From NCBI GenBank assembly GCA_017460175.1, contig JAFUBO010000003.1:160651-224650 (forward strand): 64,000 bases of DNA. The letters are read 5' to 3'. The DNA is from Bacilli bacterium. Its GTDB lineage: Bacteria; Bacillota_I; Bacilli_A; RF39; UBA660. Of the stretch, positions 5,107 through 48,984 are shown one piece after another. Made by a program: the position numbers and the translations under genes. Positions within the stretch are counted from its first letter, which is position 1; each line of letters starts with the position of its first letter. The notes beneath the pieces were generated by a model, which saw only the letters and a program-made list of their open reading frames with translations, made no database searches and was not told the origin of the DNA.

Positions 5107-5134
5107 TTTGATTTTGTATATTTTATGGTATAAT
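5107..5134 (+). promoter_or_regulatory. Promoter of the adhesin-sortase operon
   Basis: -35-like TTTGAT (5107-5112), 16 bp spacer, extended -10 TGG-TATAAT (5126-5134). Located between pdp and the GTG start at 5162. Confidence 0.65.
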
Positions 5135-5161
5135 ACAGGTATAAGGTAAGGTGATTAGTTA

Positions 5162-6340
5162 GTGGAAAAAATTTATATGGAAGAAAACAAGAATAATAAA
5201 CAAAAACGTGGAGTGGTAGACTTTTCAGTAGTTCTATCGTTTGTAGTTGCAATATTCGCTGTTATTTCTTTAGCAGTATTTGGTATTGTAAGTAATCAAG
5301 GTACAAGCATTAGTTATGCTGCAGATGAGGAAGAAAGTTTACCAGATGAGTTTATTTTTGAAGTTTTAGAAAGAAATGGTAATCCGGTTCAAATTAAATA
5401 TAGTAAAGGTGGATCATGGGAAGGTTATACTGTACCAATGTATGTAATTAGAAATACTACTAAACCAGTATTTTGTGTACAAGCACATGTTGATCCAGGA
5501 ATTGGAGAAAATTATACAAAAGAAAAAGAAATTGATGACTATGGATTGTTATATTTATTAAATAATACTTATGCTAATGGTGTTAAAATTACGGATGCTA
5601 CTGGTGAATATGCTGATTATGTTGAAGGTTGGGTAACACAAACTGCAATTTGGATGTATTTATATGAAACAAATGAAGGAGCAGCAGAACATGCTATTGA
5701 AAATCCAGAAGATATTAAACAAGCTACAAAGTTAGGTTTGAATTTATCAGGAGAAACAATATATGATCCTGGATATAATATATATGATAAATATGTTGCA
5801 CCACTAGTAGAAAAAGCTAAAAAAGCTACAAGTGATGTTATGTTAAATGCTAAACTTGAAAATGAAACAATTACACCTAGTGAAGATAAAAAATATTATT
5901 TCACTTCATTAATAACAGTAACTGGAGATCCTTCAAGCGCATTAAAGAGTTATGATGTAACAGTATCTGGAATTGAAGGTGCAGTTGTAGTTGATGAAAA
6001 TGGTAGTGAATTAGGTACTACTATTCAACCTGGTACTAAGTTTTATGTAAGAGTACCTGCTGATAAAGTAACTGATGAAGCACAAAAAGTTTCTATTTCT
6101 ATAAAAGGAACATTTAATACTTTAACTGGTAATTATTATAAGGGTGCAGCAAATCATCAAAGAGCTGTATCAGTAAAAGCTGCTGAAAAAACTGATTCAA
6201 AAAATATGGAAGTTATATTTAAAGCTCCTGATACAGGTATGAACAAAGTTCAAACAATTTACTTTATTGGTTTAATAGTATTATTATGTGGTGTTGGTAT
6301 TGTTTATGCGAATGCTAAACCTGTTCAAATCAAACAATAG
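5162..6340 (+). CDS. Thioester-domain surface adhesin with sortase signal
   Basis: 392 aa. Membrane-spanning signal (residues ~20-43), then a thioester (TQXA) domain: Cys105 in PVFCVQ and Gln160 in VTQTAIW are the two residues that form the internal Cys-Gln thioester in Gram-positive TED adhesins, which bind host surfaces covalently. An Ig-like region (~225-345) follows, then a cell-wall sorting signal: APDTG at 355-359 (LPxTG-like), hydrophobic stretch and Lys-containing tail. GTG 5162 is supported by AAGGTGAT at 5147-5154. A sortase gene overlaps its 3' end, so the pair is probably dedicated. Thioester formation is family knowledge; host target unknown. Confidence 0.85.
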   Translation: MEKIYMEENKNNKQKRGVVDFSVVLSFVVAIFAVISLAVFGIVSNQGTSISYAADEEESLPDEFIFEVLERNGNPVQIKYSKGGSWEGYTVPMYVIRNTTKPVFCVQAHVDPGIGENYTKEKEIDDYGLLYLLNNTYANGVKITDATGEYADYVEGWVTQTAIWMYLYETNEGAAEHAIENPEDIKQATKLGLNLSGETIYDPGYNIYDKYVAPLVEKAKKATSDVMLNAKLENETITPSEDKKYYFTSLITVTGDPSSALKSYDVTVSGIEGAVVVDENGSELGTTIQPGTKFYVRVPADKVTDEAQKVSISIKGTFNTLTGNYYKGAANHQRAVSVKAAEKTDSKNMEVIFKAPDTGMNKVQTIYFIGLIVLLCGVGIVYANAKPVQIKQ

Positions 6341-6962
6341 GATTAAAAAGAGCCATGTCTTACTAATTGGCTCTTTCTTTATTTTCGTAGGTGCTATTTC
6401 ACTATCATGGGATTATCTTATTAAAATGAAAGATAATATTTATTCAGATATGCGAATTGCTATGATGGATGAAGAAGATGAAGAACAAGAAGTAGTTGAA
6501 GAAGTACCAAAAGTTGAAAAAGTAGAAAAAAAAGACGAAGATAATAATTATGTAATCGATTATAGTAAATATTTAGGAGTATTGGAAATACCTAGAATAG
6601 GATTAAAAAGAGGTTTTTATAACGTAGGTTCAAAATATAATAGAATTGAGTATAATGTAACTATGGTAGGAGGAAGTTCATTACCAGATGTAGAAAATGG
6701 TAATTTAGTTTTGATTGCTCATTCCGGAGATGCTTATATTTCTTATTTTGCATATTTATGGATGTTGGGAGTAGGAGATCATGCATATGTTACATATAAT
6801 GGAAGAAAATATGATTATCAAATAGTAAACATATATGAAGTAGAAAAAAATGGTTTTGCTGTTATTAGAAGAAACTTAGATAGAACTACACTAACTATGA
6901 TAACTTGTACTAAAGATAATGATTTTACTCAAACAATTTATATTGCAGAACTTGTTGGCTAG
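6306..6962 (+). CDS. Sortase, lacking the canonical catalytic Arg
   Basis: About 218 aa: N-terminal membrane anchor (~17-36), acidic linker, then a sortase beta-barrel. His139 (LIAHSG) and Cys201 (TMITCTKD) are the catalytic pair. The Arg expected about eight residues after Cys is Gln209 in DFTQTIYIAE; no Arg lies nearby, unlike the class B sortase at 48061, which keeps it. Likely anchors the adjacent APDTG adhesin. The start is uncertain: it lies inside the adhesin gene, with in-frame GTG 6288, ATG 6306 and ATG 6312 and no strong ribosome site, suggesting coupled translation. Class cannot be fixed by eye. Confidence 0.85.
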   Translation: MRMLNLFKSNNRIKKSHVLLIGSFFIFVGAISLSWDYLIKMKDNIYSDMRIAMMDEEDEEQEVVEEVPKVEKVEKKDEDNNYVIDYSKYLGVLEIPRIGLKRGFYNVGSKYNRIEYNVTMVGGSSLPDVENGNLVLIAHSGDAYISYFAYLWMLGVGDHAYVTYNGRKYDYQIVNIYEVEKNGFAVIRRNLDRTTLTMITCTKDNDFTQTIYIAELVG

Positions 6963-6975
6963 AGAAGGTGATAAA

Positions 6976-7551
6976 ATGAATTTATCTTTATTTGAAAAGT
7001 TTGGAACTATATTTAAATATATATTTTCATCTTTTTTATCTATAGAAATGTTCATTTTAACTATTCTCTTATTTTTTATTTTAGTTGTTAATTTAAAAAG
7101 AAAAAACGTAATGGTTCAAATGATTGCGATTGGAGTATATATTGGATTTATTATAGGTATATTTATTAGTTATACTACTTATGTAAAAACTTGTATTGAT
7201 TCTTTTACAAAGGTAGTTATGAATTATATATATTTTCCATCAACTATTGTATATTTCTTTATGATTATATTTATTACTGTAATAATATTGATAACATTAT
7301 TTAGTAAGAAAATGACAATGTTTAAAAAAGTATTTAATTATTTCTTTTTTAGTGTTATTTATTTCTTATTTATGTCGTTTATATCATTGGCAGCATATGA
7401 TGGAGTTGATTTATTAAATATACCTTTATTATACGAAAATGATACAATTTTATCTTTAGTTCAGATAAGTAATTTTATATTACTTATATGGATTATATAT
7501 ACTGCATTTTATTATTTATATAAGTATTTTAAGAAAAAATATGATAAATAA
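6976..7551 (+). CDS. Polytopic membrane protein of the adhesin-sortase operon
   Basis: 191 aa with about five hydrophobic segments (near residues 17-38, 47-66, 85-106, 117-139, 160-182) and a Lys-rich C-terminus. No known motif recognised. GAGAAGGTGAT precedes ATG 6976 by a few bases, 13 bp after the sortase stop, and a terminator follows, so it is the third gene of the unit. It could help secrete, fold or regulate the adhesin, but this is inferred from position only. Confidence 0.7.
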   Translation: MNLSLFEKFGTIFKYIFSSFLSIEMFILTILLFFILVVNLKRKNVMVQMIAIGVYIGFIIGIFISYTTYVKTCIDSFTKVVMNYIYFPSTIVYFFMIIFITVIILITLFSKKMTMFKKVFNYFFFSVIYFLFMSFISLAAYDGVDLLNIPLLYENDTILSLVQISNFILLIWIIYTAFYYLYKYFKKKYDK

Positions 7552-7578
7552 AAATACATCTTATGATGTATTTTTTTT
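7552..7578. terminator. Bidirectional terminator between convergent genes
   Basis: Stem AAATACATC/GATGTATTT with loop TTAT; T-run on the + side and A-run on the 5' side, so it can end both the adhesin operon and the minus-strand carboxypeptidase gene. Confidence 0.85.
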
Positions 7579-47923: not shown

Positions 47924-48064
47924 ATGTATACGGCATATTTGATATTTACCATTATTTTATTTTTATCATTTATTACAGGTATGGTTTTGATATTAGTCGA
48001 GCATGAACCAAAGAAAAATGAATTAGTAGATAATCATATAATAGTAGATAGTGAGATTCTATGA
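47924..48064 (+). CDS. Small membrane protein ahead of the class B sortase
   Basis: 46 aa, mostly one membrane helix (~2-25) with a short acidic cytoplasmic tail. AGAGGTGAG precedes ATG 47924 and TATAAT (47894-47899) lies upstream; the in-frame ATG at 47882 is before the -10 and not used. ATGA-type overlap with srtB suggests tight coupling. Function unknown. Confidence 0.55.
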   Translation: MYTAYLIFTIILFLSFITGMVLILVEHEPKKNELVDNHIIVDSEIL

Positions 48065-48984
48065 TTAAAAAGATAATTGATATTTTTGAAAAAATTGAAG
48101 ATATTGTTTATAAAATATGTTTAATATTTTCAAAGGGATTTTTCTTTTATTTTTATTTATTAACTGATTTATTATATAAAATTATACCTCTATCTTTTTT
48201 TAAAAAATTGAAAGAATTTTTTAAAGAAAAACAAACAGATACTGTGGCATTTTTATTTGTTGTTTTATTATTTTTTGTAGGTGTATTTATTGATGTGTAT
48301 TTTTATCCTAATGATGATATTAAACACATTGATAATAGTATAATTAATGGAAATGTTTCTTATAAGAAAACAAGTATAAATAAACATGATTTAAATTTAT
48401 ATCGTAGTTATTCTAAAATGGATATTAATTCGGTATCTTTAGCTGATTTAAGAAAAGATAATGATGAAATAGTTTCTTGGTTAATGGTTGATGGTACTTC
48501 TATAAATTATCCAATAGTAAAGGGAAATGATAATGATTATTATTTAAATCATAATATTATGAAAGATGTTAAGAGTAGTGGATGGACATTTATGGATTAT
48601 CGTAATTCTATAGATTTGTCTGATGATAATACCATATTTTATGGACATAATTTAATTAATAAGACTGGATTTGGTAGTTTAATTAATTTATTTGAAAAAA
48701 AATGGTATGATGAATCTAATCATTATGTTGTAGTTTTAAATGATAAAGGTAAATATATTTATGAAGTATTTTCTGTTTATACTATAGAACCTGAACTTTA
48801 CTATTTACAAAATAATTTTACTAATAAAAATGATTATTTAGAATTTTTAACAACTTTAAAGAATAGAAGTATATTTAATTTTAATTTAAATTTAAATAGT
48901 AAAGATAAAATTATAACTTTATCTACATGTACTGATGATAATAAAGAAAGAAGAGTAGTACATGCTAAATTAATAAAAAAATAA
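48061..48984 (+). CDS. srtB: Class B sortase
   Basis: 307 aa. An unusual N-terminal part with two hydrophobic segments (~20-45 and ~62-82) precedes the sortase domain. Class B features: VSWLMVDGTSINYPIVKGNDNDYYLNHN, GWTFMDYRNS, catalytic His in FYGHNLIN, Cys in LSTCTDD and Arg in KERRVVHAK seven to eight residues later. It joins surface or pilin-like proteins to the wall. No sorting-signal substrate lies adjacent. Overlaps the small upstream gene by 4 bp. Confidence 0.92.
   Translation: MIKKIIDIFEKIEDIVYKICLIFSKGFFFYFYLLTDLLYKIIPLSFFKKLKEFFKEKQTDTVAFLFVVLLFFVGVFIDVYFYPNDDIKHIDNSIINGNVSYKKTSINKHDLNLYRSYSKMDINSVSLADLRKDNDEIVSWLMVDGTSINYPIVKGNDNDYYLNHNIMKDVKSSGWTFMDYRNSIDLSDDNTIFYGHNLINKTGFGSLINLFEKKWYDESNHYVVVLNDKGKYIYEVFSVYTIEPELYYLQNNFTNKNDYLEFLTTLKNRSIFNFNLNLNSKDKIITLSTCTDDNKERRVVHAKLIKK

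Follow-up and report, generated by a model that had tools for sequence, protein, structure and literature searches.

A sortase with glutamine at the catalytic arginine position, encoded between a predicted thioester adhesin and a five-helix membrane protein in a Bacilli bacterium

In a 64,000-nucleotide stretch of the genome of a Bacilli bacterium (hereafter the window; the host genome is 0.99 Mb long with ∼25% GC), we analysed three co-directional genes of the forward strand, which encode, in this order, an adhesin, a sortase and a membrane protein. Judging from sequence comparisons, the odd part of this unit is the sortase and not the adhesin: it has glutamine in place of the catalytic arginine, and the clade of sortases that share this replacement is so far found only in the bacterial family of the window. 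The best explanation of the unit, and in our view a probable one, is a dedicated module for the surface display of a covalent adhesin. The features of the unit, with positions in the window, are as follows.

5126..5134, + strand: extended −10 promoter element TGnTATAAT, TGGTATAAT, found 5′ of 32/32 aligned adhesin genes
5162..6340, + strand: adhesin gene; product above the PF08341 cut-off, model matching 6fwv, 6fwy and 6fx6
5474..5476, + strand: codon of Cys105, the putative thioester cysteine; 31/32 relatives, aligned to SaTIE Cys296
5639..5641, + strand: codon of Gln160 in the helix motif TQTAIW (TQxxPhiW); assigned from motif and literature
6158..6160, + strand: codon of Gln333, probably the glutamine of the thioester; aligned to EfmTIE86 Gln292
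6224..6238, + strand: sorting pentapeptide APDTG; sequence and ortholog alignment
6251..6310, + strand: sorting helix QTIYFIGLIVLLCGVGIVYA, hyperconserved in its lineage
6288..6962 (alternative starts 6306 or 6312), + strand: Gln-type sortase gene; PF04203, 47-sequence alignment
6720..6722, + strand: codon of the catalytic His145
6906..6908, + strand: codon of the catalytic Cys207
6930..6932, + strand: codon of Gln215, at the triad arginine position (Cys+8)
6976..7551, + strand: five-helix membrane protein gene; model and co-occurrence
7550..7578, + strand: terminator hairpin followed by a T-run; 11 pairs, −10.3 kcal/mol

The unit lies between a nucleoside phosphorylase gene and a convergent VanY-type gene. 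The three-gene arrangement proposed by the first-pass annotation, made from the sequence alone, was recovered, and so was the overlap of the sortase gene with the 3′ end of the adhesin gene, which amounts to 29–53 nt depending on the start of the sortase. The single promoter and terminator claimed for the unit are likewise supported, since the −10 element is conserved throughout the aligned adhesin genes and the third gene is followed by a hairpin with a T-run. A generic consensus scan picked up neither of these two elements, probably owing to the rules on spacing and G+C that it applies. The order of adhesin, sortase and membrane protein is kept across the genus, in numerous further genera of the same family and in a second paralogous locus (locus 2). 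Locus 2 is absent from the genome of the window; in 17 genomes of the same genus, where we read it, it encodes a Gln-sortase, a membrane protein whose cytoplasmic tail is long, and an adhesin with SpaA repeats.

The product of the second gene matches the sortase family PF04203 with an E-value of 5.9e-16 (58.8 bits, cut-off 26.6). Two members of the canonical Cys-His-Arg triad are present, the histidine and the cysteine, both conserved in 125/125 relatives, and the arginine is missing. Eight residues after the cysteine the same 125 sequences carry glutamine (122), histidine (2) or tyrosine (1), and none has arginine. By comparison, an arginine follows the cysteine within the expected stretch in each of the 35 readable sortases that were sampled from outside the family (28 counted by script and 7 read from printed sequences). 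A profile search of a 392-genome sample of the phylum gave matches with an E-value of 1e-12 or better only in the family and in two outsiders, one of which has arginine at the aligned column, the other displaying the class C pattern with arginine one residue later. Phage and plasmid records contained only weak, partial sortase matches.

The Gln-sortase shares its fold family, histidine and cysteine with class C and class D sortases and with the class A/B enzymes of S. pyogenes, and the Cys+8 spacing is that of S. pyogenes SrtA (Cys208/Arg216) and Spy0129 (Cys221/Arg229). It differs from all of these in having glutamine for arginine and in its VP[DN]T-x motif, and it falls below the NCBIfam cut-offs for class C (63 vs 160 bits) and class D (37.7 vs 165).

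The triad arginine has been reported as conserved in all sortases. In S. pyogenes SrtA it forms bonds with the carbonyls at P4 and P3 in the sorting peptide and is essential, activity being abolished without it (PMC9520033), so the activity of the Gln-sortase is not to be assumed. The amide of a glutamine in this place could form similar carbonyl bonds. A relocated charge is also possible, because Lys187 is present in 124/125 and Arg195 in 110/125 of the relatives: either residue might substitute for the triad arginine and leave an ordinary sortase activity. From the sequences we regard this as a rather unlikely alternative, as Gln215 is nearly invariant and a passive filler at this position is therefore not expected. 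Less probable still is that the protein is a hydrolase or a binding protein, which would cut or hold the adhesin but leave it unattached to the wall. The abolished activity of S. pyogenes SrtA would fit such a role; against it, the cysteine and histidine are invariant and the threonine at the cleavage position is kept, as for an active enzyme. A pilus-assembly unit, in which the sortase would polymerise the adhesin, is highly improbable: although class C (pilus) sortases are among the nearest sequences of solved structure and no NCBIfam class scores higher than class C, that score is far below its cut-off, and the unit has a single substrate and lacks both a gene for a backbone pilin and, in the adhesin, a stalk domain.

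Gln-sortases mostly adjoin thioester adhesins whose sorting motif is of the VP[DN]T-x type. A TED-type adhesin was recognised upstream, by motif or profile, for 62 of the 78 sortases newly read in other genera of the family, and both TED genes in the genome of the window have a Gln-type sortase next to them. The private sortase suggested for the adhesin is thus borne out in the sense that the enzyme is encoded beside its putative substrate and that this pairing recurs across the family.

The adhesin comprises a signal peptide (residues ∼1–53), a class II thioester domain (61–356) and the sorting signal. It passes the Pfam model PF08341 (TED) narrowly, at 24.2 bits against a cut-off of 22. Pfam detects no isopeptide or ester stalk domain, and the thioester domain extends nearly to the sorting motif. 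The AlphaFold model has pLDDT values mostly above 90 over residues 61–356. Foldseek matched it strongly to three structures only, all of them class II thioester domains (E = 7e-13, 1e-12 and 6e-5); VIA gives Z-scores of 16.3, 15.1 and 10.3 for class II and 9.0–11.6 for class I domains. The model aligns end to end over residues 61–356 in the two best class II comparisons (Z 16.3 and 15.1), as expected if it contains the beta-sandwich insertion of class II. Sequence and model thus agree with the thioester adhesin named in the first-pass annotation, and the protein is predicted to be a single class II thioester domain without a stalk.

With the class II TIE domains BaTIE, SaTIE and EfmTIE86 (6fwv, 6fx6 and 6fwy; PMC6194298) the adhesin shares the fold over its whole ectodomain, the cysteine motif, the TQxxPhiW motif and a distant, putatively bond-forming glutamine, but identity in the structural alignments is only 11–19%. 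Unlike the TIE proteins, it has no isopeptide stalk and is accompanied by a dedicated sortase and a third gene. Adhesin matches were found in the window's own genome and in 33 of the 35 other genomes of the genus, and in 0/23 genomes of the same class in the sample.

The motif around Cys105, FCVQ, fits the class II TED pattern [YFL]C-hydrophobic-hydrophilic. A bond between Cys105 and Gln160, as originally proposed, is rejected by the TED literature and by the alignment. Gln160 is the glutamine of the TQTAIW helix motif, and in known domains the TQxxPhiW glutamine is inessential for the thioester bond, the bond-forming residue lying in a late PhiQzetaPhiPhi motif, described as weak, near the end of the domain (PMC6194298, PMC4450167). 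Since the TQxxPhiW glutamine is not needed for the bond and Gln333 is invariant in 32/32 sequences, the likely partner of Cys105 on the alignment is Gln333, ∼230 residues away in the sequence. The motif around Gln333 is mostly (L/F/K)QKVV among the 32 relatives and HQRAV in the window. The equivalences with SaTIE Cys296 and EfmTIE86 Gln292 were derived from construct boundaries in PMC6194298; a profile of the 32 relatives reaches SaTIE at E = 0.005 and, more weakly, EfmTIE86 at E = 0.11.

Two substrates have lost the thioester cysteine. A tandem adhesin copy (L026, 236–1408) has serine in its place and is the sole exception among the 32 relatives, and a TED-like substrate in another locus (L214, 1779–3575) has alanine. 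The N-terminus of the window's adhesin, MEKIYMEE (5162–5185), precedes the signal helix; it is acidic and more conserved than the residues that follow (0.82 vs 0.33), which is unusual for a signal peptide.

The sorting pentapeptide APDTG, described earlier as non-standard, is indeed present; it is, however, one variant of a family-wide motif, V-P-[DN]-T-x, in which position 1 is valine in 57/67 sequences and position 5 is variable. Among the orthologs the pentapeptide is mostly xPxTG-like, with TDDTG in two. The LPXTG-type model TIGR01167 scores 10.9 bits in the protein scan and 15.6–15.9 in the genome scan, against a cut-off of 15.9. The tail beyond the sorting helix carries little positive charge, which we count against the surface-display explanation.

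The sorting helix itself is far more conserved than the ectodomain, with pairwise identities of 0.80 and 0.36, respectively, in the adhesins encoded by the locus of the window (locus 1) across its genus; in close locus 1 relatives from other genera the helix is similar. The overlap with the sortase gene or an RNA element is an unlikely cause, as the non-overlapping half is equally conserved and the synonymous codons vary normally. Nor does a hyperconserved helix generally indicate contact with the third gene product: adhesins of locus 2 have ordinary helices (identity 0.39 vs 0.55 in the ectodomain) despite the presence of the third gene. Adhesins without a third gene display no helix-conservation bias. 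Our preferred reading is a specific membrane contact in the locus 1 lineage.

The model of the third gene product contains five long transmembrane-type helices, in agreement with the initial description. Conservation of this gene had been proposed as a check on the unit, with a failure to co-occur in relatives as the refuting outcome. The gene withstands this check: it is found in 36/36 genomes of the genus (34 strong matches and two with a weaker paralog only), next to sortase genes in other genera as well, and in 0/23 genomes of the same class in the sample. It lies directly 3′ of the sortase gene in the loci read in the genus and in locus 2, and 3′ of the sortase in 50 of the 78 loci newly read outside the genus but within the family. 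The third gene goes with the sortase and not with the thioester domain as such, because it occurs as well in loci whose substrate has no clear TED motif (L132, L212) or is TED-like with the cysteine lost (L214). About one-third of the newly read Gln-sortases are not accompanied by it, and the clade as a whole therefore does not depend on it. On the sortase tree the presence of the third gene is strongly clustered (7 changes vs 25.5 in shuffled labels), and a single origin followed by losses is possible.

The charge distribution of the membrane protein indicates an outer position for loops 2 and 4, which hold several near-invariant residues: Tyr66, Phe87-Pro88, Asp145, Tyr153 and Asn155. The protein has no Pfam family above the cut-off; the N-terminus of the Na+ dependent nucleoside transporter (PF01773) was rejected at 19.4 vs 27 bits. 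In fold searches all Foldseek matches had E-values of 2.7 or higher and Z did not exceed 6.5, which is no proof of a new fold.

A dedicated surface-display module accounts for the observed gene order, conservation, fold match and residue replacement; from these we infer thioester formation, anchoring and the role of the membrane protein. The adhesin would be exported, an internal Cys105–Gln333 thioester would form in its class II domain, and the C-terminal helix would retain the protein in the membrane until cleavage by the sortase. The co-encoded Gln-sortase would cut at the threonine of the xPDT/G-type motif and join the adhesin to the cell envelope, most likely to peptidoglycan, with its glutamine replacing the arginine that positions the sorting peptide in other sortases. 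The five-helix protein would be the partner of the sortase in the membrane and would probably serve both enzyme and substrate as a platform. D-Ala-D-Ala carboxypeptidase genes adjoin the unit and suggest that a wall is present for anchoring. Wall-reduced uncultured Bacilli orders, including RF39 and neighbours, have been described (PMC10868615), and the order of the window may be one of them.

A bolder version of the surface-display explanation, to which we give somewhat less than even weight, is that the Gln-sortases are a new catalytic lineage. Glutamine, perhaps together with Lys187, would take the place of the triad arginine in the VP[DN]T-x-directed display of thioester adhesins, and one branch would be complexed with a polytopic membrane subunit.

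The target of the adhesin could, by analogy, be bacterial partners as readily as host tissue: the class II TED adhesin of pLS20 serves conjugation in Bacillus subtilis (PMC8092201), and one Gln-sortase/adhesin pair of the family (L241) adjoins a TrbL conjugation gene. The pLS20 adhesin shares its domain class with that of the window, but it lacks a sorting signal and does not depend on a sortase; the adhesin of the window has both a sorting signal and a sortase, and its gene is chromosomal, beside the nucleoside phosphorylase gene.

Several loci in other genera of the family (L236, L237, L240–L243 and L246) have Gln-sortases without the third gene and adjacent adhesins of ∼920 aa. At L241 the pair is followed by the TrbL gene, and at L237 and L243 by replication-type genes (HTH_36 or related); some Gln-sortase/adhesin pairs are therefore probably located on conjugative elements. 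The genome of the window contains a second TED adhesin (L088, 6325–8294; C1, ∼89.3–91.3 kb) of 492 aa with SpaA repeats and a VPNTH motif, which is accompanied by a short Gln-type sortase of its own but not by the third gene.

Each element of the unit is of a known kind; in the open-access literature we found no description of an Arg-less sortase or of a clade of such enzymes tied to thioester adhesins, nor of the putative membrane partner. A large natural clade without the triad arginine is a ready-made experiment on the role of this residue, and the Gln-sortases may supply a transpeptidase of different peptide specificity (VP[DN]T-x). Members of this little-known family of uncultured Bacilli often have several thioester adhesins, mostly with a sortase of their own, which bears on how these bacteria attach to their surroundings.

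Two further sortases of the same genome are class B-like. One, in the window (48061–48984), has a normal arginine at the aligned column and no obvious adjacent substrate gene. In the other (L089, 6798–7640; C1, ∼265 kb; STCTRFYGEKQQVSFYVVGRL) the arginine seems to be missing from its usual place, and its gene is clustered with those of a 997-aa cysteine-rich protein and putative secretion-ATPase-like proteins.
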